From NCBI GenBank assembly GCA_032622095.1, contig CP136062.1:5766001-5830000 (forward strand): a stretch of 64,000 bases of DNA, written 5' to 3'. The translations under genes and the position numbers were made by a program. Positions 1-14,589 of the stretch are shown piece after piece; the stretch's first letter is position 1, and each line of letters opens with the position of its first letter. The DNA comes from Siphonodentalium dalli. Lineage: Eukaryota > Mollusca > Scaphopoda > Gadilida > Siphonodentaliidae. The notes under the pieces are model-generated. The model saw only the letters and a program-made list of their open reading frames with translations. It was not told the DNA's origin and ran no database searches.

Positions 1-968
1 AATCGACTTACCACATAAGAACATCTTTAATGTAACATAAACATATCTTTCATGTAACGAAAATTCAAAACATCGACGCACGTAAATGATATTTTCCAAA
101 TCAGACACATTTTGTAATCTGAAAGAAGAACAAGCCCCAGTTACACCCTCTAGATATTTCAGCTTGGTGTTGCGTGTGTTCGCGCACAAACAGCCTCTGT
201 AAATAGCAGCCTTCCCCTTTCGTTACAGTATTGGTCTCTCCTGTAACGTTTTGGCATGTTACAGCAGAGAACGTTACAGTGGAGATAGTACAGACCACTC
301 TGGTCACGGCATTCAATGAGTTCTCCCTCCAGTATGGCGAAAATAGGGAAGTATAAAATACACCACAGTGGCTTCGGAAACATTTATTTGAAATATAATT
401 ATACATATGTTATAGCGAACAAACATGCGTTATTTAAAATACGACTTTGAAAAGTACGCGAGGGGGTCAACCTACCTATTATATAATTGTGTTATCGCAA
501 GTTGTTTTTTGATTCAGACGACGTGCGTTTCCGATATTGTGACGTACAAAGCATCACGGAGAACAAAATACGGAGATTATAAATATCAGGGATACGTCAT
601 TATGTCAAGTAAATAGCACTTCGTTACATGAGAGACACAATGCTGAGGTACAAAGTTTCTGAGCAATTTTCACTTAGTTAAGTTCAATCTTGGGTAGTGT
701 ATATGTGACAGTAGTTTATATCAAGAACTAAACTAATGATATGCCAGAGGATTTTCTCGGTGGCATGTAGTTAATATATCGAAATTTCGATTTTAGCCTG
801 TAAAATTTTCCTGGGGACAGGCCATTTTGGTCAAATCTGGCCATGAATGAGCCCATTACATACATATATACCCGAACATCACGCTTATTTGTGTGTGCAT
901 GTTGTGACGGTGATAGAGATGCACACTGGGAACAATAGTTGGGATCCGCACGTTGCATTATGCACTCA
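1..968. other. Non-coding stretch, nothing recognised
   Basis: AT-rich sequence with only short open frames on both strands and no protein family that I recognise. The frames at 101-406 and 159-383 overlap on the same strand and look random in composition. No tandem array, terminal inverted repeat or RNA gene was seen. The part from about 728 to 968 lies directly downstream of the retrotransposon fragment on the minus strand and could be its decayed continuation, but no endonuclease motif is visible there. Confidence 0.5.
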
Positions 969-1427
969 TCATCCACCGAGGACATCAATGTTGACCAAAA
1001 TTGATATTGACTCTAATAGGCATGCGTCGTACTCGCCACTTGATGTTTCGGCCGCAAGTATATCTAATTTATTTCTGATACTCTGTGTATTCAACACAAG
1101 TACCGAGTGACTGTGTTGTTCGGTTGAAGGGCCTGGGTTAGTCTCGACGTTTCCTGCGAGGATCATGAGAACCCTTGCCAAAAATACCGTTAGTACTGTT
1201 AGAATGCTCGCGCACGTGAAGAGAGATGCAGCTGTGTATGACCTCGCAAGTTTTGTGTTCAGTCTCATCTTTTCTTCGGAATGTGGTGCATATGATATTT
1301 TCTTGTGGGTCATGATATATTTGAGAGTAGATAGTTGTTCCATCGTGAAAATAATGGAAACCAGTAGTGTCATTATTAGGGAAGTTGTAAGATTCAGACC
1401 ACGTTGGCACAGCATAATATAAAACAA
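969..1427 (-). pseudogene. 5' fragment of a CR1/L2-like non-LTR retrotransposon ORF with a 2A-like motif
   Basis: A 152-residue frame. Residues about 66-90 form a hydrophobic run, followed directly by AGNVETNPGP at residues 91-100, which matches the viral-type 2A ribosome-skipping signature (D)(V/I)ExNPGP except that N replaces the usual D. After a short linker, VLNTQSIRNKLD (residues 111-122) and EYDACLLES match the first strand and helix of an APE-type endonuclease, where families read roughly LN..S...K...L...YD...L.E. That order (hydrophobic leader, 2A, endonuclease start) is the one known for the N-terminus of CR1-like elements in sea urchin, amphioxus and molluscs. The frame stops soon after the first endonuclease strand; no later endonuclease or reverse transcriptase is seen, so the copy is truncated or decayed. 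The true start is uncertain. Product inferred from motif order, not from a search. Confidence 0.72.
1128..1157 (-). other. 2A-like ribosome-skipping motif
   Basis: Encodes AGNVETNPGP. In known 2A peptides the ribosome fails to form the bond between the last G and P, giving two products from one frame. Here the upstream product would be a short hydrophobic leader and the downstream one the endonuclease-containing protein. N replaces the nearly invariant D of the consensus, which may lower activity; this is inference. Confidence 0.7.
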
Positions 1428-2128
1428 GCATGTTTATGATTGTCTCACACAAAGAGGCCCCCTCCCTGACAGTCTGACAGCAAGATTGTGAAATGCACCG
1501 ATCCTTGCCCTGTGTAACATTATATCCATCATTAAAGATCATATCAAAATTCAGATATTTATTGTTTGGGCATCCTCGGTGCACGTTAAGAAGTATATAA
1601 TTTGAGCATACTCTGACAACATATAGAAATGAAAACCTATCATGGGTGTTTTTTTACATCTGTTTTCAGCTCAGTCCGTTTTCCCAGTGGGGGTAAGCAA
1701 GTGGGGACAAGATAACAAGATAGAGCAGAAAATGAGTTGAGAAGAGGATAAGGCCGTGATGATTGATACTTTGGTACAAGGAGTGGGGGAAAGCAGAAAG
1801 AGTAAGAGAACAGAAAAAGAGGAGATAAAAACATTACATTGGGTGTATCTCATGGTATTAGATTCCTAGGACTAATGGGGGACAAGAGCTGCAAATATGT
1901 TTCCAAATATATTCAGATTCAGTTTCATGCATGTGCGTTGTTTATGCTGCTCATATACAGTGCGGTTTCGTATAAGAAGATTCAAATATTGTGGCAAGTG
2001 TGTTCACCAATTAACAGTGCATAATCAAGAAAAGGAACGTCATGTTTCCGTCCTGTACGTAAGCAGATCTATGTAGAAGTGTATTGTTATGCACGATATG
2101 TTAAAAGAGACGAACATGAATAGTATAC
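1428..2128. other. Region upstream of the retrotransposon fragment, unassigned
   Basis: On the minus strand this would be 5' of the 2A-bearing frame. An overlapping minus-strand frame at 1,138-1,584 runs through part of it with several cysteines, but it shows no family motif and overlaps the 2A frame in a different phase. A purine-rich tract lies at about 1,690-1,830. Nothing else is recognised. Confidence 0.35.
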
Positions 2129-2388
2129 TTTGCTGGAAGTGGCATGGAACGGTATATGTATACATGTGGAAACATTCAAGGCTTATCACAGAAGTGTAAT
2201 AAATCAAACGGAGCAGCTAAGAAGTACATGAATAATTCTGAGAGACATATGTAAATAATATTTAAGTTTCATGTGCGTTGTTAAGAAGTACATTAATAAT
2301 TATGAGAGACTCTATATGTGTATGTATATGTCTCCCATAATTATTCATATATACATACATAGACACATATACATACACCTATACATAT
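2129..2388 (+). repeat. Truncated copy of the foldback element at 3,542
   Basis: Nearly identical to 3,530-3,786, including GGAACGGTATATGTATACAT at the left end and an internal hairpin around 'cataattattcat'. The right inverted repeat is missing; after CCTATACATATG the sequence continues into unrelated DNA. Confidence 0.75.
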
Positions 2389-3541
2389 GCGTTGTTATCA
2401 AACTACTCACACACAATGGGGTTCCGTTCATGTATTATAGAGAAATTAAATATTGTGGCATGTTTTCACAAGTATAGTTCTCCACTTACATGTATATTAA
2501 TCAACTAAAGGATATGTAAGTATATAAATAGTATAGTCTATCGTCATGCCAATCAGAATCTTGACTACAACGGAAGCTGTGAGTTAAAGGCACGTGAGGC
2601 CTTAATTGTCATAAAGACCTACTATATTTTACCTAAGCAAGAGCCTGATTGTGTTACAGAAGACAGCACAATGCTACTGGCTAATCACACATAAATGGCA
2701 TAAACGCTCTTTATTAGTTCCATATCAGGAATTCACCCACAAAGAACGCTCTTTATGTTTACCATCATAATATAAACAAACACCAGAAAAGTAACTTTCT
2801 ATGCTTTTGTTTACATAACAATAGTCAAATATATGACAATAACATACTGTTTATGCGATATTTCTTATTTGTATACGGACAAAGTCTGTCTACATTTTGA
2901 TGTTCTTCTGTTTGTGGCGGTTTTTGACGGGTGGAAATATTTTTACAGGATACCCACCGCCAAGGCCAACCGCACCTTTAATCAACATTACCTATTTTGA
3001 GCCAGGCACCATTATTACAAATATATGCATGGATGCATATTTAGGTGGTATATTGGTAAGGATCGAGTATGAATCCATGGTATGCACTATATGGACATGA
3101 AACGTGTCTCAAATGATCCAGGTAAGTGAAGGAGTCATTGTTAGCATGACAGAAATATAGCACTCATTTGTACGTGGTACATCGAACAAAATCGAACACT
3201 AAGCATGGACAAACGACAGGTATCTTTGATAAGTGTATTTACGCATTGAGCTTTTTGGAAGATGATGTATAGCGCGTACTTTTCGTACAATGATATACGC
3301 ACGGCAATAGCTTTGATTGATGTGAAGTACATATAAAGAGGCTGGTGTGGGTGTACACCAGAACATAAACAAAATATGTCTATCGTGCAATGGAGGTGGT
3401 GGGTGCATCCGAGTATAAACAGTATAAATTCCATGGCAGGGGCAGACAAGAAACGGCACGACTGAGTTGACTTACATGCGTGTAAGTGCAGTGATAATTG
3501 ACGTGACATGTGATTTGCGATAATGCCACTTTGCTGGAAGT
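2389..3541. other. Non-coding stretch, nothing recognised
   Basis: AT-rich, with no recognisable protein. Sequence near 2,390-2,480 loosely resembles 1,930-2,010 (both contain 'gcgttgtt' and 'caaatattgtggca' or 'taaatattgtggca'), suggesting an old dispersed repeat. Confidence 0.4.
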
Positions 3542-3802
3542 GGAACGGTATATGTATACATGTGGAAACATTCAAGGCTTATCACAGAAGTGTAATAAAT
3601 CAAACGGAGCAGCTAAGAAGTACATGAATAATTCTGAGAGACATATGTAAATAATATTTAAGTTTCATGTGCGTTGTTAAGAAGTACATGAATAATTATG
3701 AGAGACTCTATATATGTATGTATATGTCTCCCATAATTATTCATATACACATACATAGTCACATATACATACACCTATACATATGTATACATATACCGTT
3801 CC
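3542..3802. mobile_element. Foldback/MITE-like element, 261 bp
   Basis: Begins GGAACGGTATATGTATACAT and ends with its reverse complement (ATGTATACATATACCGTTCC), giving about 20-bp terminal inverted repeats. The interior folds again: 'gaataattatgagagac' pairs with 'gtctcccataattattc'. A second, right-truncated copy lies at 2,129-2,388. No target duplication is clear. No coding capacity. Confidence 0.65.
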
Positions 3803-4402
3803 ATGTGATTTGCGATAATGACATTTGATTTGCGATAATGAGAACATGCGATACATTGTTTCTCGCTATACAATGTCACTTAAAGCACCTACAGAATTGC
3901 TGAATCCTAGTAAATACAAGCTGTAGAAATAACAAACTTTACAGAAGACTTGGTCGTGAAATGCGTGGTCGAGTTACATGTGTGACACAGTAACCGATAT
4001 GATGAGCTGGTGGTCAGAGAGATGGCTTGTAAGAATCATGCTTAAATAATTCCGTGCGAAGCGAGATTGTCCTCAATGGATGTGCCGGATGGCCGGTTTC
4101 AATCAGGACAGACACATCAGTTCATGCTTATTGGGTCATTCGGTGGTTTAAGGCGTCAACAAATGCTTGTGTCTGAGCTTCAAATTACAGTTTCAAAGGT
4201 AAAAACGATGTATATGTACGATGATATATTATATGCCATGTATCAATGTTAAGTCTTCTCGTTATGCGCGCATTGGAAATATTTTTAAAATCGGATAATC
4301 TGACGTCCTTCCGGAGAGGATGGTTCAGTTGGATGCGTTTTGTTTATTTAGCTGATTTCTGCATAAATCGTTTTCATCGGATATGTAAGTGCATGTGTTA
4401 AT
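3803..4402. other. Non-coding stretch, nothing recognised
   Basis: Contains 'gtgatttgcgataatg' twice at about 3,806-3,841 (a partial third at 3,510-3,525), possibly short tandem or slippage copies. No gene or mobile element ends seen. Confidence 0.4.
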
Positions 4403-4949
4403 TAATATGAACATAAGCTAGCTTAATTAACGAACCAAAGCTGAACAACATGGGTGCCCGTTTGGTGGGGTTGGGCGATTAACTATTTATGTGGTCATTC
4501 AACCAGTAAAACTGCTGTTGTGACATGGCATAGCGGCTGAAATGACGATAAACCATTATCAACCGACCAACATGGATATTCCTGTGGCTTCAATCTCACA
4601 TGATTGAATCATTTTACAACTGGTACCTCAATTTCATAAAGTTAGAAATATTCTAAATGTGGCCATTTGTTGGTCTAGTTATACAACAGATTTTCCACTG
4701 AATACCAAAGTTAGGGGGGGCAAAACCAGAACCCCTCCCACCAATTATGTGGTTCTAAACTCAGCTCATAAATCACCATCTACCGGTACATGTACATCTA
4801 TCAGGACTATGAGTTCGAACTCAAATAACAGAAGCTGAGAAACTGGTGTGAATTAAACTGTGACGGGGTCTCAAGCATGTCTACCCCTGCACATCAGAAA
4901 AATGCCATTAACCTTATCATGACTGGAGCTCAATGAATTTTTGCGAAAA

Positions 4950-5178
4950 ACTTGGTCCAATGCACACTTATATATGGGAGTCTCCCATTGGGAGCCTCGC
5001 ATATATAAGAAAAGACATTGGCCAAACAACATTTGCCTTAACATTGTAAACCAGTGCACTTTTATATGTGAGGCTCACCATGAGAGACATGCATATATTT
5101 GTACATGTATACATCTGCATGTATACGAGTGTGCACAGGCACATTATATTTAATGCTGCACCAGTATGAAAGGGTTAA
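4950..5178 (-). mobile_element. Decayed piggyBac-like MITE, copy C
   Basis: Degenerate relative of the element at 40,336-40,715. It keeps the TTAACCCTTT edge (read on the minus strand at 5,172-5,178) and a hairpin containing 'cttatatatgggag' and 'cctcgcatatataag' between 'ccaatgca' and 'cattggcc'. The second end is not found. Shared with A and B, so it predates the triplication. Confidence 0.5.
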
Positions 5179-7410
5179 ATGGCAAAAGTAGCTTGAGGGT
5201 GGATGTGATCCATCATATCGCAGGTCAATTCAACCAGTCCCACACAATTTCATGTTCAAGTTCTTGTGTACTAATTTATAGCACAAACTCATTGCCAGTT
5301 GATAGAAATACATGATTTTCAATTTTGTCAATAATTCATAATTTCACTCACCTTGCAGTGTGTAGACTATAGTGACTATTGTTATATATTCTGTCATATT
5401 TTCACAATAAAAGGTAAACTACCACCAGGAATGAAAAGAAATTGCAATTCAATATTCATAATTCTCATTTGCAGTAGCAGTAATTGAAATACATACAACT
5501 GATAAGATATCACTTTAGGCAAATGCTTTAGAATTTCTACAGCAAGTCAGGAGCTTTTACAAGAATCAAAGTGTTGAAAATGAGTTAATGAAAATCATGA
5601 ATAATGTAAACATGATTTTACATGTACTCTTGTCGGATCAAAATATTTCTGTCATTTGTTCAGTATAATGGCGGCATGATTGAGATTTCTTGTACTATAG
5701 TGGAATATAAGACAGGGAACTCTCAAGGTTGGGTGTATTTAGAGCGAAAATAAAGTAATGGGGAACATCTCTCAGTCTAATACAAGGTCATAGCTCTGGC
5801 AAAGGGCTATAACTCCGAAAAGAGTGCAGACAAAACTAGCCCTGTGAAGGACGGGGTCAAACGAAGGTCTCCACATATACACTGTACCTCCGAACCATCT
5901 GAATCCTCAATCACAAATTTCCAAGTCAAGGAAGGGTTGTAACTGGCAAATATGAAACTGGTATTTGGGGATCCTTTCCACCAACCTATGCTAAACGTAC
6001 AAGAACACCCTATAATTAACACCCCGAGTTACAAGCTTAAATATTCTTTCAGACACAAATTTCTAACTCAAACAAGGGCCGTAACTCTGGTAAACATTAG
6101 AGGTGTGACTGTCCCAATGGGACTAAGGATACCCCCTTTTTTAAAACACTAAGATGGTTCACATGTCAGTAAACATTTAGTTAAAATAATAAAATAACAG
6201 ATTCCCATTGCAGGTACAAAACCCTAACCCCAATCATAAAACCTATTGAGCAAATGAGAGGCCGATCATGATCGGCAGATGTTAACCCATTCCTTCGCGA
6301 TAGTAAATTACTATGATTGGAAACATAAAGGAGAGTTTTGATGTTGAATTATAGAGCATACTGTTACGTATTATTATAGACCATACATGTACATAACTCA
6401 ACTTATTGGAATTTATGGGTCACTCGCATTTACATGTACCGTATGTAAGATAATGCACTGGAACAGGATCTGTAACGCGCTGCACCACCCCAGCCTTGGG
6501 TTAAATGTGAAAAGGTGACCATGGAATAATTACTTGGTCTGCTTGGTCAAGATATTGCAATTTAAGTTTACAATGACAATGTATCGCATTCTACCAACAC
6601 CAGCCATCAAGATAAGATACCATACTGCTGACCCATTGGTATGAATTATTTATACACCACAGCGGTCAACAAATCACAGGCATCGTTTATGCTGAAGACT
6701 GGTATCACTATTAAACCAATAACATTTACATTTTTTGTATAATAACATCAGACCATCTGTAGAGTGATGATCTAGTCTACTTTTAACAGCATGTGATCTG
6801 AATTGTTGAAACTGTTTTTTTAAATTAGATACAATAACTTTCTTTATCTGCACATTAGCATAAGAGACATCTGAAAATTATATAGCCATATTGTATTAAT
6901 AGCTACAGTAGTCCAAAGGCATGGGATGGAATTGGTGAATTGGGTTTAATGTCGCTCAAAACAAATTTACCAGTACACAACACAATACATGTACGGGTAT
7001 TTTCTACCGATTAAAAACAAAATTTATGTGCTGACTCGGGTACCCTTGGCAGAGTTGTAATGGTGTTATTTTTTTAAATTTTGTTAATTTTGGATTTTTT
7101 TTTTTTTTTTAATTATTTAAACAAAAAAGTTTTTTTTTTTTATTCATTTATTGATATTGTGGGTTTTTTGGATAAATTGAGCAAGGAATTCAATCTAAAA
7201 AAATTTGTTTTGTTTTTTTAATATAGAGTGAATATTTTTTAGAAAAATGGCCATAACTCAGTTAAAAATAGATCTGTCTTTTGGGCTCAGACATTGATAT
7301 GTAAAATTCCGATCAGATAGAAAATGTTTGAGTTATCGCACCATGCATAAATGTCCATGGACACACAGACAGACGACGAGTGGTCACTATCTTTATCATA
7401 CTATGGCATG

Positions 7411-8456
7411 GCTAAACATAATGAACGTGTCAATGACACTGTAGCTCAACTTGGAAAGGGAATAATTTCATGTGTTACAGTCAATGGAGTGATTAGGAAT
7501 GTGGAAAGTTGAAAGGCCTACCGTAGTTATGCAATGAGTGAAATCCAAGATGCCGCTTGCAGCCATGTTTTTTTGCTGAATGACCACAAAGTGACTAATT
7601 CCCATCTACATGTCATTAACATCCATCACAAATTTCATGATGATCTGACAAAAGATCATATGACCTGTGGCCTGTGCCAAAGGATTTATTCATTCAAAGA
7701 GTAAAATCCAAGATGGCTGCTGTCGGCCATGTTTTTTGGCCCAATGACCGAAGATCCGACCAAAGCTACGACCTGTTTTTTGGCCGAACAACCCCAAAAT
7801 GACTCGTTTCCATCGACATGTCAATATTAGCATCAATATTAGCATCAATGACAAATTTCAAGATGACCAGACGAACAGTACAACCTGTAGCCGTTCTAAT
7901 GGATTGAAATTTGAAATTCAAGATGGCCGCTGGCGGCCATGTTTTTTTCCCGAAATTACTCGTTCTCATCTAGCCATGACAAATCTCATAATGATCTGTC
8001 CAAAGGTACAATCTGTAGCCCGTGCCAAAGGATTTAGTCATGCAAAGAGTAAAATTCAAGATGGCTGCTGGCAGCCATGTTTTTTGGCCCAATGACCCCA
8101 AAATGGCTCGTTCCCATCTACATGTACATGTCATTGTTAATATCCATGACAAATTTCATGAAAATCTGAAAATCTATGACCTGTAGCCCGTGCCAAAGAA
8201 TTTAGTCATGCAAAGAGTAAAATCCAAGATGGCTGCCGGCGGCCATGTTTTTTTGCCAAATGACCCCAAAATGACTCGTTCCCATCTACATGTCAATGTC
8301 AACACCATGACAAATTTCATAATGATCTGACCAAAGGTACAACCTGTAGCCCGTGCTAAACGAAATTGTTGACGAGTCACACACCCTCACACACACGGAC
8401 GACGGATACCAAGCCATGGCAATAGCTCAAACTTTACAAAGTAAAGTTGAGCTAAA
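7411..8456 (-). repeat. Tandem array of ~155/164-bp units, copy C
   Basis: About five units, each with a GC-rich hairpin (AAGATGGCYGCYGGCRGCCATG), a poly-T run and GACTCGTTCCCATCTACATG. On the minus strand the element opens with 'tagctcaactttactttg' and closes with 'aagttgagct' plus a GTGTCATTGACAC hairpin. Same element as 32,140-33,943 but with fewer units, so array length varies between copies. Resembles bivalve pearl or Helentron-type non-autonomous elements; the class is inferred. Confidence 0.75.
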
Positions 8457-9805
8457 AATGTAGGACAAAATTATACATTTTGCAAAGATTTTCTAAGTCG
8501 AAAAATGGGGATGTAACTCCACCAAAAAAAGTCTGACAGATGTCATAATCGCTGATCCCCATGTTGTGGATGTCTGTGCCAACTTCCATGGAAAATGATC
8601 AGAAAACAGCTGAGAAAAACTCCAGACAAATGTATGTCCACAGACAAGCTGATTGGAGTATAAACCCCCTTCGCCACAACCGCGTTGCAGGGGGTATTAT
8701 TAATGGACAAAACATTTCCCCCCAACACTACGACATAAGACAACAAAATCCAATAATAAAGACATCCACAGCCAGAGGTCAGAGTAGATTTTATATACCG
8801 GTAGCATTCTCTACCAATACATGTTTTTTCATTGTAAATTGCTTTGCAGAAATTGAAAAACGCATCACAAATTGCAAATCCAGTTACACTGATATACAGC
8901 ATGTTTGTTATGGACGCTACACAAGTCCAGTAAAGGGCCATAACTCTGGGGAAAAAGTCTGAACAAAACCTCCATTATGTGGACATCCACAATCCTGATC
9001 TACATGCACCAGCATGCCGAAGGACACCCAAATTGGAATTCCCATTTTTGAGCTGTGTTGTGAAATGATAGTTATGGACAGACAGAATGACCCACCGAAA
9101 GGAAAGGCAGACTGAGGTACATGTATCACTATATATACCCCTAATCCTTGGTACGGGTACTTTTACATACTGTATACATGTACATGTACACCAATCAGTA
9201 AGCCTGGGAGGCGGGCTTGTGCACGTACATGTATTTACTCATAAAGTTGGTACTGGGCTTACTCACAAGGCCCCCTCCCCTTTGCAAACATTCAGTTAGC
9301 CTTCAAGTGCTGACATACCATCATGTTTTATAGCATTACCGTTATTTTTATTTTGGTACTGAAAAAGATAATGTGTTTTATTTATATCATTAAAAAAATT
9401 AAGTCACATGATAATGACCAGAAACAGTGACAAGACAGTTCTATACATTTGGAATTAAAAAAAGCACAGATGTGCTCGAGTACATGTATCTTCTCCTACA
9501 GGGTACCTGTATTCTAGAGGATAGAAAGACATGATTGTATTCACCTTCCAAATGCTCAACAATTCCAAATTTTCTCACACTGAGCCAAACAACCATGGTC
9601 AGCCGGCTTTTCCTGGTTTTTGCCTGTAGCAGTGTGCATTTGTCTGGAGTTAGACCACTAGATGTTAGGTTTTATGCAATATTTCAGGTTAAAATATCTG
9701 AATGTTCTCATACCGGGATTGGAGTATACAGGTAGAACCATGTTTTATGAATATATAGGGGGGTGCAAATGAAAACAATTTGGTTCAAGCGATATATCAC
9801 ATAGC

Positions 9806-10648
9806 CAGGGTTTCCACTATACCGGCAGGGGGTTCCATTGACGGCCCAGTTCCCCTCACCAAGTTTTCCCCTCCTGCGATACCCCAGGACATACTGCATG
9901 TCTATAAAGTATACAGATGTTTAAAACTTCTGAATTTTGTTGGAATACATGTAGTACTAAGGAATTTTAAAAGGCGAATTTATTTTATATCTTGTGAGTG
10001 TACACACTCTAAACGCGTTGTTAAATTGAAACATGAAGTGATCGGAACTGACATCGCTAGAAGCTATGCCTTTGAAGCTGGTTACTAGTAGTTACGTTAC
10101 CCGGTTATGCTATGCAAAAGAGCAGTATTTTAATCATACCTGTCATGTTTTATACCGCAAAATATACAATTAACTTTGTAATAGAGTGAGAGAGAAATGT
10201 GGGAGTAGCCGCACCGGGCATCAAGGCATCTTACCACTGCCCACAAAGAATACTCGTCAGCCAGATATGTAATCAGCCTTAATATATTCCGATTATGTTA
10301 TCCATCCAAAATATCTGCTGATTCTTCCATTGAGTTTTTTAACATTAATGGGCATGTTTAACTCGGGATCCAAATTACTGGTGTTCTGTACATCTACTTC
10401 GTAAATTAATTTATATCAAATAAATTTACTAGTTTTAAAGTTACAGGTACATGTATAAGGGTTGATAGCTTGGCACTCGGGCAGAAATGTAACAAAACAG
10501 TCTGCCATTTCTACTCTCACATGATTCTATTGGCCGATATAACGAAAGTAGTTCAACCAGTGCTAAAAGTAAAACAGGCTACTTTTACCTGGATTTTTGC
10601 CCTTGATGGCTACCGGTCCCATTCCCCTACCCCCTAGCGGAAACCCTG
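9806..10648. mobile_element. hAT-like non-autonomous element, 843 bp
   Basis: Starts CAGGGTTTCCACTAT and ends with GCGGAAACCCTG, so inverted repeats of about 12-15 bp. Flanked by ACATAGC on both sides (9,799-9,805 and 10,649-10,655); eight bases match with one mismatch. A and B have the uninterrupted site 'atatatcacctagcaaat' (minus strand near 27,295), so it entered C after the copies separated. CAGGG ends and a 7-8 bp duplication fit hAT. A short frame at 9,780-10,088 shows no transposase motif. Confidence 0.72.
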
Positions 10649-11180
10649 ACATAGCAAATATCAAAATATCAAATAATCTGAAATGTGTTGTTCCATGTAG
10701 TCTGTAGAATACTCAAATGTGATTATGTGACTAGATCATGTGACTATATACATGTACACTGTACTAGTACTATGAAATTATGAAAATGAATGTTAATAAA
10801 AACTTTGGCAATCTGCCTATCACTAGAAACGTGATTATGTTGACACATTTCTTGATTAAAGACACTCTTACATGATAAATTCAAATACTAGTAGTATCGT
10901 TATCTGCATTATGCACTGTTCTATTAAAATTTCATGCAATAAACTATTTACAGGGTGGATGTCCAAAACTCACCCGAAAAAAATTCCTGAAATGGAAAAA
11001 AAGGGTGGGTGTCCAAAATTGCCCGTCTGGAAAAATAAAAATGATCATACATGCCTGGAAATTTTTTTGGACCTCCCCCCCCACCCCAATTTTTTATTTT
11101 GTATCCAGTTGCAGAAATACTGAACTACAATCATGTTGTGGTGAAAGTACTAGTATTACTTGAACAACACAGTGGAACTA

Positions 11181-11574
11181 CCCTGCTGGACAAAACAAGT
11201 GTCCACTTAACTGCGGTGCAGTTAGCATTGCTACCGCGGCCGAAATGCTACTACACCGCAGCTCCACAAGCTAACTACAGTTGGGCCGTGGTGTAATTGT
11301 CATTCGGCATGGTGTACATGTAGTTTATACGGTGTACTTTCATCAAACTGAAAAAAGACAATACAAACCAGAAATCTAACCACGGTGTACATGCCATTCG
11401 ACCGCGAGGGTACTAGTAGTTGCCTTTCGCCACAGTGAAGTTGCTGTTTGGCCGCAGTGTACTTGCTGTTAGGCCGCGGTGCTCAACTGCAGTTACAAAC
11501 TCTGACACCGTCACACCGCAGCCGAACTGCACATACACCACGGTGCCAATGGACACTTGTTTTGTCCAGCGAGG
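11181..11574. mobile_element. MITE-1, 394 bp
   Basis: Left end CCCTGCTGGACAAAACAAGT and right end the same in inverse with a small rearrangement (CGAGG for CAGGG). TA on both sides (11,179-11,180; 11,575-11,576). The interior has CCGCGG-type palindromes and 22-bp tandem units around CACCGCAGCCGAACTGCA. Lies in a part of copy C that is uninterrupted in A and B. No coding capacity. Confidence 0.85.
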
Positions 11575-11641
11575 TACATACATGTATTTACATTAAGATT
11601 GAATAAAAGATCAAACTTGGTTTATGCTTAAAGGTACTAGT

Positions 11642-12032
11642 ACTCAATCCGATCAGAGGGTCCTATAAAAATATTTGATTCGATTCAAGGAACCCATTAA
11701 ACAAAGCTCAGAGTTATTAGATATTGATTTTTGAAATTTGTTATTTTCTCGAGATGAGTACTAATAATTGCCCTTAACGTCGTAATCTGCTCGAGATGTG
11801 TACACCAAAACACTATTGAAACAGATAAGGATGGATAACTCTAAAATCAAGTGGTAATAATAACGCAGTTTTGACTGTGTTCTGGGCCAGAAAGAATAGA
11901 AATAACGAAACATCAAATATCGATATATGATCACCCTGAGCGTTGATTGGTAGGTTCCTCAGCACAAATAAATTATTTTTACACCCAAAGCCAAATAAAT
12001 AGTAATATAGGGCCCTCTGATCGGATTGAGTA
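11642..12032. mobile_element. MITE-4, about 390 bp
   Basis: Inverted ends ACTCAATCCGATCAGAGGG and CCCTCTGATCGGATTGAGT. A and B read straight through this point ('tatgcttaagtgtgtgattt' on the minus strand near 26,880), so it is an insertion private to C. The duplicated target is unclear because 'aaggtactag' precedes the left end. A diverged, left-truncated relative lies near the window end (62,870-63,150). Confidence 0.68.
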
Positions 12033-12222
12033 TATGTGTGATTTGTTATTCAAATTTTCATACATTTGGTTACCGGTACATGTACATGTAGCAGTAAGAT
12101 TTATAGTTTACATGAAGATTTGTAGCTTCTTTGAATGTTATGTCAGTCACATGGAATTGTCCCATTACTATTTACATGTACATATACATGTACATGTACA
12201 GTATACTAAATAGAATTAAAAA

Positions 12223-13198
12223 TAACTAATGTACCAAAAGGCTAATTACATATTAGGATATTCATCAGATTGATCAATATTAACAGATCTACTACTAAAT
12301 AGTACTACAGTATGACTGTGAAGACTCATTGTGAATCCAGTGTACCGCTATACATGTACACTTCAAACACTACATATATCGTATTGTGTCACACATGTAC
12401 ATGTTATAGGCCTGTAAAGACTCATCATGAATCCAGTGTACCGCTATACATGTAGATTTCAAACAATAACGGTACACGGTACATGTATCGTATTGCGTCA
12501 TACCGGTAAATGCACAGATAATGATGGATAATGCAGTGTTTTTTTGCAAATACAGTGTATATATACGGTACCTCACTTCAAACTCTCCCGGGAATTTTTA
12601 TTCATCTGAGTTTTCCTGTGTCCGGTGTCCATTGAAAAACCAATCTGATACTGATATTAAAATAATTATAAAAGGAATAATTTTGAGTTAAATATATAAA
12701 CATGCACGCATAAAACACATATCTCAGTTTACGTAGATTATATTGAGCTAGTGACATTTAAATTTACTCGTATCAATGGATGTACGGTATCAATGTTACA
12801 TGTACATTATTACACCAGGACTGGGTACATGTACATCACACGAGTGGGCAGTACTTTATAAACATGGTCATACGGTATGCTATATGGAGAGTCGTGCAGT
12901 GCATGATAGAAGATTAAAGCTCCTGTGGTTTCACACCAGTGATATGTCCTCAATATACCAGTATATGGCAGGGATGTAGGTGTCAACACTGCAGATTACG
13001 GTATGTCTTCAAAATACTACAAATTGGTCAGCTTATAACTACATAGTTTCATGCTCACAGCTAGTTCAATTTGTGCGATGGAATGGGCTCGTGGCCACCG
13101 GTTCGACCATATGGTTTGGGCCGGTGAATTGGATAAATATTTCAATTAAATCCTCCGTACTATCAAATGCTCGGACTACCGGTACATGTAATCATGTA
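12223..13198. other. Non-coding stretch between copy C and a MITE-1
   Basis: Contains the two-unit tandem repeat at 12,315-12,505, many TACATGTAC words and, at about 13,080-13,130, an inverted pair 'ccaccggttcgacc' / 'ggtttgggccggtg'. No gene recognised. Confidence 0.5.
12315..12505 (+). repeat. Two-unit tandem repeat, ~96 bp period
   Basis: 'aagactcatTgtgaatccag' at 12,321 recurs as 'aagactcatCatgaatccag' at 12,417, followed in both by 'tgtaccgctatacatgta' and by a 'tatcgtattg' block. The second unit has small insertions. Confidence 0.65.
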
Positions 13199-13573
13199 CC
13201 CCGCTGGACAAAACAAGTGTCCATTGGTACCGCGGTGTATTTGCCGTTCGGCCGCGGTGTCAGAATTTGTAACTGCAGTTGAGCACCGCGGCCGAACGGC
13301 AAGTACACCGTGGCCCAACAGAAAGTACACTGCGGCCGAAAGGCAACTACACCGCAGCCGAACGGCATGTACACCGTGGTTAGATTTCTGGTTTGTATCG
13401 TCTTTTTTCAGTTGAATGAACGTACACCGCGGCAATTACACCATGGCCGAACGGCAAGTACACCGCGGCCCAACTGTAGTTAGCCGGTGGAGCCGCGGTG
13501 TAGTTGCATTTCAGCCACGGTGGCAACGCTAACTGCACCGCGGTTAGGTGGACACTTGTTTTGTCAAGCAGGG
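13199..13573. mobile_element. MITE-1, 375 bp, well preserved
   Basis: Ends CCCCGCTGGACAAAACAAGT and the inverse of CCCTGCTTGACAAAACAAGT, with TA at 13,197-13,198 and 13,574-13,575. The interior contains about four consecutive 22-bp units (CACCGCGGCCGAACGGCA and variants), a spacer with 'gatttctggtttgtatcgtc', then further units. CCGCGG, CCATGG and GCCGAACGGC/GCCGTTCGGC make much of the element self-complementary. A good template for the family consensus. No protein: the frames across it are artefacts of the repeated units. Confidence 0.88.
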
Positions 13574-13679
13574 TATATATATGTTGTATTGGCTTATCCC
13601 AAAGTGTAGCAGTCTCAATGTTATTGCTACATACAGCTATGCTCTTATTAAGGGACCTGTTTAATGAGGTTATGGGCCG

Positions 13680-13850
13680 GTACGTACCGCGGTGATACCA
13701 CCAGAATACCATGGTGATACCACCAGAATACCACGTTTATTTTGTACCGCGGTGGAGGCGGTCGATCCGCGGTACTGGGCGGTATTCTTACCTCTGGTCA
13801 CCACGTTATTGGTGCTCGTTACCACAATACACCGCGTCATCCTCCACTGC
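13680..13850. repeat. CCGCGGT-rich palindromic block
   Basis: Contains 'gtaccgcggtgataccacca', then 'gaataccatggtgataccac' as a repeated unit, then 'ccgcggtactgggcggtat'. It shares the ACCGCGGT vocabulary of MITE-2 but lacks its terminal repeats, so it is either a further family or a relic. No ends defined. Confidence 0.5.
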
Positions 13851-14589
13851 GAAGTGAAAACATGCATGGAAAAAACTAGGCGGCCTGCAGGAATCCAATT
13901 CATGATCTCGGGAAGTTAAAAAAAACATTATTGTAAGGATGGTACCGCCCTCGTTCTCTCTCGGGCTACATGTATGTCTATGCAATATAGCGTCACGCGG
14001 TTGGATACGTGATGTATAACTTCTATATCTCATGCCAAAAACCAAAAAATAGGTTTGTTTCGGGTATTTCGGTTTCTGCATGGCAACCCTAAACTTTTTT
14101 CCCGACTACATATATTTTCCCCGTACCCAAATAAAAACATAAAAGTGAAAAACAAATAAAGCGACGTTTCGTATAAACAAGGTGAAGTCCCATGCGACTT
14201 GCAGTGATATAATTTACCATCGGCAGTTCAGGGTAAAATTTTCTTTCACATATTCTTATCTAATCACAATTCGGATGAAATGCATGCGTGTTTGGCATTG
14301 GAAAGGGGAAACGTACATGTATGCCTCTATATAATAAGTAAGGTTAGCGCAAGATAAAATTTTACGTACCAATCTGATAATCTGAGTAACGACAATAACA
14401 CTGACAGTGACTAACTAAATTGAAAGTTTTGTTGAAAAAAACATACTGAATTCCAAGATGATTTAAATTGTTTTGTATGCTCGTTCGTTTCTTTGATACA
14501 CCCAGTCATTTGGTAAGACAATCAGCTGCACATTTTGGTATTTGGCTCACACTATTGTGTATTAGCAATACAGTTCACTGAGACTGTCG
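13851..14589. other. Non-coding stretch, nothing recognised
   Basis: No repeat family, RNA gene or protein recognised. The small frames are of random composition. Confidence 0.4.

Follow-up and report, generated by a model that had tools for sequence, protein, structure and literature searches.

A predicted 2A-like motif in an apparently dead, duplicated LINE fragment of Siphonodentalium dalli and the LINE families related to it

The window, i.e. the whole stretch of 64,000 nucleotides of Siphonodentalium dalli DNA that was analyzed, carries on its minus strand an open frame of 154 aa, measured from stop to stop, which an earlier sequence-only reading of the same DNA had given as 152 residues. 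A leader, a 2A-like motif and an endonuclease start follow one another in this single frame, as that reading had claimed and as we could confirm (Table 1). The core GNVETNPGP falls within the expanded 2A/StopGo definition (D/G/C/N)(V/I)ExNPGP, to which the core was widened for RNA viruses (PMC12846837, 2026). It is not a chance match, because across the 2.23-Gb genome its own exact pattern has two matches, against 0 for the reversed control, and the pattern GDVExNPGP has 162, likewise against 0. A Pfam search with the 154-aa frame gave nothing above the cut-off, the only match being DUF7775 (E 0.073). The endonuclease stub was not recognised in this search and therefore its assignment rests on the relatives described below. 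The Rfam search of the window returned 0 matches.

Table 1. Positions of the features in the window and of inverted pairs of one leader-pattern spelling elsewhere in the genome.
Feature	Position	Strand	Remark
Segmentally duplicated segment	1-14450		blastn; the block reaches ~1.65 kb past the start of the window
LINE remnant (upstream region, leader, 2A, first endonuclease residues)	1014-2322	-	88% identity over 1,324 bases to L017
Putative leader start	1488-1532	-	Met at 1530-1532, motif HRARIGAF at 1491-1514
In-frame stop breaking the leader	1434-1436	-	absent from the other two block copies
Open frame, stop to stop	972-1433	-	154 aa
Leader, region of the first hydrophobic segment	1347-1433	-	
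Second hydrophobic segment	1155-1244	-	directly abuts the 2A core
AGNVETNPGP	1128-1157	-	preceding A at 1155-1157
2A core GNVETNPGP	1128-1154	-	N codon at 1149-1151
Predicted skip site, G/P	1131-1133 / 1128-1130	-	placed from the literature
AP-type endonuclease N-terminal stub (STEQHSHSVLVLNTQSIRNKLD...)	1014-1127	-	homology to the L013 and L015 frames
LNTQSIRNKLD	1062-1094	-	same frame as GNVETNPGP
Unrelated tail of the open frame	972-1013	-	common only to the three block copies
TACAGAGCTTATATAGGGACATTT inverted pair	C1: 55522580/55527021		
TACAGAGCTTATATAGGGACATTT inverted pair	C1: 155546858/155556832		
TACAGAGCTTATATAGGGACATTT inverted pair	C1: 166076165/166081280		
TACAGAGCTTATATAGGGACATTT inverted pair	C1: 184028580/184033423		
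TACAGAGCTTATATAGGGACATTT inverted pair	C2: 57874179/57878810		

To judge from its letters, the window copy is a dead 5' remnant of a LINE which, by resemblance, we take to be CR1-like. Its homology to two fuller loci of the same genome spans 1014-1611 (L013) and 1014-1741 (L015), and the endonuclease homology stops at 1014. Leader homology runs on upstream of the in-frame stop as far as the Met, and the spacing from this Met to the motif (6 residues before the H/Y) is that of L013 and L015, so it is because of the stop that the window frame begins in the middle of the leader. When L013, L015 and L017 were compared with the window and the 8 kb to its left, no further parts of the element were found, with the exception of non-coding pieces common to the window region and to the surroundings of L017.

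The remnant is part of a segmental duplication. Window positions 1-13198 and 13573-14450 have an inverted match of ~98.7-99.5% identity at C2:~0.90-0.91 Mb, which is at least of this extent since its end is the end of the compared DNA, and positions 1-4758 also match a block at C8:~172.49 Mb with 99.3% identity. Compared in pairs, the window region and C2:0.90-0.91 Mb have about 16 kb in common in inverted orientation, the window region and C8:172.49 Mb have 6.4 kb, and C2:0.90-0.91 Mb and C8:172.49 Mb have about 15 kb. The two sites on contig C2 are inverted and lie ~4.9 Mb apart, the third, partial copy being on C8. As duplicated DNA flanks the LINE remnant for a considerable distance on either side, these three copies are duplicates of DNA and not separate retrotranspositions. 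All three have N in the core, GNVETNPGP twice and GNVETNPGS once, the C8 copy having lost the last Pro. By parsimony from the three copies, the change of D to N is best read as a single event which would have preceded or accompanied the duplications and affected a fragment without an enzyme. Three independent insertions bearing N were also considered and rejected, because the similarity between the copies reaches far outside the LINE remnant. Two stretches of ~260 bp in the window, 2127-2389 and 3528-3785, are inverted relative to each other or repeated, and are 96.6% alike to each other's block copies.

The sequence-only reading had proposed a search of the host genome for full-length relatives of the frame, and had named relatives without the motif, or with this region not joined to an endonuclease, as grounds for abandoning it. 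The protein search gave 1,763 candidates, 150 of which were scored, all of them with matches. An open frame of 1,100 aa or more (stop-to-stop length) is present in 28 of these 150 relatives, and in one of the 28 a stop falls within the matched stretch. GDVETNPGP is kept in 27 of the 28, namely in 16 of 17 among the GDVExNPGP matches listed, in all 10 fetched copies and in L016, while in the remaining one, L068, part of the 2A is deleted and the frame is still open. The sequence-only reading thus withstands the check it had set for itself. The better copies run from leader through 2A and endonuclease to RT in a single frame of ~1,190 aa, and both Exo_endo_phos and RVT_1 were recognised by Pfam in the frames of L013 and L015, the two long frames checked. 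Relatives therefore have what defines an AP-endonuclease LINE, endonuclease and RT, in frame with the 2A, of which the window copy keeps the endonuclease stub only. In L015, the one locus examined in this respect, no ORF1-sized frame precedes the main frame: from position 2475, where the shared region starts, up to the main frame, plus-strand ATG frames reach 89 aa at most.

With D in 27 of the long frames and the segment missing from the 28th, we rejected the idea that N is a family feature of the window element; an intact N-bearing copy of its family was not found among these 28. The N is however not confined to the window block in this genome. A separate LINE family reads GNIETNPGP and has N in 29 of 29 matches and D in none, counting matches to the L021 leader-2A-endonuclease start which have at least 72% identity and span the residue. 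The exact N pattern is present in 26 of them, three (L069, L070 and L071) combine N with later changes of the core, and two matches of the family have frames of 1,180 aa. Altogether 34 sites in the genome have the N pattern, 27 from the GNIETNPGP family, two from the window block and five others. A tree of endonuclease starts (14 rows, with L038 omitted as shorter than 90 aa) has two well supported inner branches out of 11 and leaves the N family unplaced, and because of this poor support the origins of N, C and H are counted to a minimum only.

It could be argued that N in the window copy is a selected, functional variant of the element, as there are natural contexts in which N at p12 retains activity, one natural N variant reaching more than 95% (PMC12846837), and as the sister family carries it in every match. 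We consider this very highly improbable: in the element itself only the three copies of the duplicated block have N, the window leader is broken by a stop and the body of the endonuclease is gone, the C8 copy is also without the last Pro of the core, and D12N placed in foreign contexts has modest activity only (PMC12846837). The N had been put forward as a new feature, which does not hold, since it is confined to three copies of one block and is already a functional natural variant in viruses (PMC12846837). It is probably a single substitution of the kind that accompanies decay, and the hydrophobic context in front of it is common for 2A. The window motif is, as far as sequence can tell, a true 2A-like motif in a dead and duplicated LINE fragment, for which skipping is predicted.

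Constraint was estimated as dN/dS with our own Nei-Gojobori script. Between L013 and L015 it is 0.44 for the leader, 0.11 for the 2A segment (24 residues), 0.14 for the endonuclease and 0.08 for the RT. Leaders of inter-subfamily pairs give 0.44-0.66 and are thus weakly constrained, and the 2A codons vary synonymously between subfamilies. For L079 and L091 of the N family the values are 0.83 (leader) and 0.17 (2A and endonuclease), and for L017 and L018 the 2A segment has 0.57. The window copy differs from each of L004-L007, which are among its nearest relatives, by 0 synonymous and four non-synonymous changes in the 2A segment, i.e. no constraint is visible, which fits decay, such short branches carrying little information. 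These values bear on the alternative that there is no skipping, that the motif is translated through and that leader, endonuclease and RT work as one fusion protein. Such a reading could draw on the dependence of 2A activity on upstream context, chimeras being often inactive (PMC12846837), and on the inhibition of 2A that a translocated upstream sequence can cause (PMC2978324). Still, between subfamilies constraint on the 2A segment is close to that on the endonuclease, which is not so for the leader, and the upstream context resembles a class shown to be active (PMC12846837), so we regard a working fusion as improbable.

The leader of the relatives is ~126 aa long and has a polar start with the conserved motif M-x5-[YH]RAx[IV]Gx[FY]. 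All of the 15 leaders compared have Met, five or six residues and then [YH]RAx[IV]Gx[FY], a figure which is biased because the motif itself had served to pick out 10 of them. In 14 aligned leaders the only invariant columns are M, R, A and G of the motif stretch and P and G of the core. As a DNA pattern YRAxIGxF has 562 sites against 51 for the reversed control; 13 of 20 sampled sites are followed by a 2A-like core and an endonuclease start and seven are not. At the sampled motif sites the core of L041 is in another frame and L038, L039 and L056 have broken frames. Of ten distinct cores reached from the side of the 2A pattern, five have the leader motif (GDVET, GDVEC, GDVEK, GNIET and GNIEK) and five do not (L025, L026, L027, L028 and L033). 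L025, L027, L028 and L033 look broken or unclear, and L026 is a 2A-PHD-endonuclease element: its positions 1078-3021 (C7:68.37 Mb) have a GNIEVNPGP 2A, a PHD-finger-like stretch and an endonuclease, without the leader motif, and represent another type of 2A-bearing element. The leader pattern in the spelling TACAGAGCTTATATAGGGACATTT was found in inverted pairs ~4-10 kb apart (Table 1), L043 being without 2A, and these pairs resemble a LINE leader less than they do the termini of some other repeat.

The leaders fall into two length classes, eight having 114-129 aa before the core and seven having 54-58 aa. With a 19-residue hydropathy window, six of the eight longer ones (long leaders) have two hydrophobic segments, while in L032 and L054 only the segment adjoining the 2A passes the threshold; short leaders have one hydrophobic region, also adjoining the 2A. 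A structural model of the L013 leader has a helix at residues 88-128, in the stretch homologous to the second hydrophobic segment of the window copy, which would run into the core, with low overall confidence (mean pLDDT 66.1, pTM 0.36). A PDB sequence search with the leader profile gave 0 matches at E up to 1, NCBIfam gave one chance-level match only for four leaders, and spellings of the leader motif were not found in the literature text searched.

A hydrophobic run up to the motif is indeed present, and from it the sequence-only reading had suggested a signal-type 2A, in which the leader would target the ER, successful skipping would leave the enzyme in the cytosol and failed skipping would send the fusion into the secretory pathway. 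In sea urchin NLR proteins the 26-aa N-terminal sequences, VETNPG being one of their cores, are established to serve as a signal as well as a 2A (PMC4981915; Roulston 2016), and there as here a hydrophobic leader ends in a 2A core. The NLR sequences belong however to an immune receptor, whereas here we have a LINE leader of ~126 aa (or ~55 aa) with a polar N-terminal motif; the leaders of L013 and L015, ~126 aa long and polar at the N-terminus, are not a short signal peptide fused to a 2A core. In L013 a distance of ~65 residues separates the first hydrophobic segment (residues 43-70) from the scissile Gly (135), and as the ribosome tunnel holds 30-40 residues (PMC2978324), this segment could have left the tunnel before the 2A is made. 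In long leaders, contact of the first segment with SRP is thus conceivable. The segment abutting the 2A would at the moment of skipping still be inside the tunnel, and L-rich runs such as LLLLSG are a known 2A context (PMC12846837), for which reasons a signal function is possible but not likely and the run alone is no sign of it. The start of the leader is moreover polar and rich in R/K, with a conserved non-hydrophobic motif, two of the eight long leaders have only the 2A-proximal segment, and a secreted endonuclease-RT would be of no obvious use to a LINE.

We therefore prefer, with a probability of about 0.8, the reading in which the window holds a dead 5' LINE remnant and the fuller copies are leader-2A-endonuclease-RT elements, most likely with skipping at NPG/P. 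In such copies the ribosome would translate the leader and then leave Gly and Pro unjoined, the leader would be released with a hydrophobic C-terminal helix, and translation would go on with an endonuclease-RT starting at Pro. The enzyme would in consequence not be tethered to the leader, which presumably inserts into a membrane. What speaks for this reading is the common frame, the order of the domains and the constraint on the 2A segment between subfamilies; what speaks against it is that among the nearest relatives of the window copy, L017 and L018 included, such constraint is not visible, that the frame of L068 stays open with a damaged 2A, and that the leader is weakly constrained.

2A/StopGo sequences have reportedly been found in CR1-like and other APE-type LINEs and, as in those, the 2A-like core here precedes an AP-type endonuclease and RT and is in frame with them, while the window core differs by N for D and by its place in a dead fragment. 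A 2A in a non-LTR element, as here, is also said to be present in L1Tc of Trypanosoma cruzi. Viral StopGo sequences have, like the LINEs of this genome, natural N and C at p12, H at p14 and p16 and an L-rich upstream class, H14, H16 and C12 being rare but active variants (PMC12846837). The difference is that the variants here are in LINEs and that H14 and H16 are present together in some families, of which we found no discussion in the available text of PMC12846837. Our literature search for core spellings gave one paper, which deals with mycoviruses and has DVHPNPGP.

Several 2A-like cores seldom met with in viruses are frequent in this genome. There are 187 sites of GD(V/I)HxNPGP (H14), 137 of D(V/I)HPHPG(P/T) (H14 with H16) and 22 of GC(V/I)ExNPGP (C12), each with 0 in the control, all of them counts of DNA-pattern sites, at a few of which the LINE frame was checked. 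In LINE frames H14 is represented by GDIHT (L038) and GDIHQ (L048, L093), H14 with H16 by GDIHPHPGT (L050, L076, L077) and VDVHPHPGP (L052, L072, L073), C12 by GCVER (L051, L094-L096) and GCVEC (L054), and GDV(Q/H)EHPGP by L042 and L092; L074 and L075 deviate within two of these core families. The window copy itself is ordinary and the interest lies in the LINE families around it. As there are many families with different cores and the same leader layout, one genome offers a natural series of cores (D12, N12, C12, H14 and H14 with H16), with which one could test what cores are capable of skipping and how much drift the motif tolerates. A further question, to which we found no answer in the literature searched, is for what purpose the leader of a LINE should require a fixed motif at its N-terminus in addition to hydrophobic segments. 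Tentatively, and as a possibility to which we give clearly less than even odds, these LINEs may have, where a normal ORF1 would be expected, a small membrane protein opening with M-x5/6-[YH]RAx[IV]Gx[FY], which is always made joined to the 2A and released by it. The 2A would free the enzyme and leave the leader with a hydrophobic tail, so that the leader may serve the retrotransposition complex as an anchor or escort at a membrane, and in the absence of the constraint acting on viruses they may have explored cores rare there, with N12 as a family norm, C12, H14 and H14 with H16.

Of the 12 GDVEKNPGP sites among the matches listed, 10 are on contig C3, many of them at 52-61 Mb, which is possibly a local expansion.
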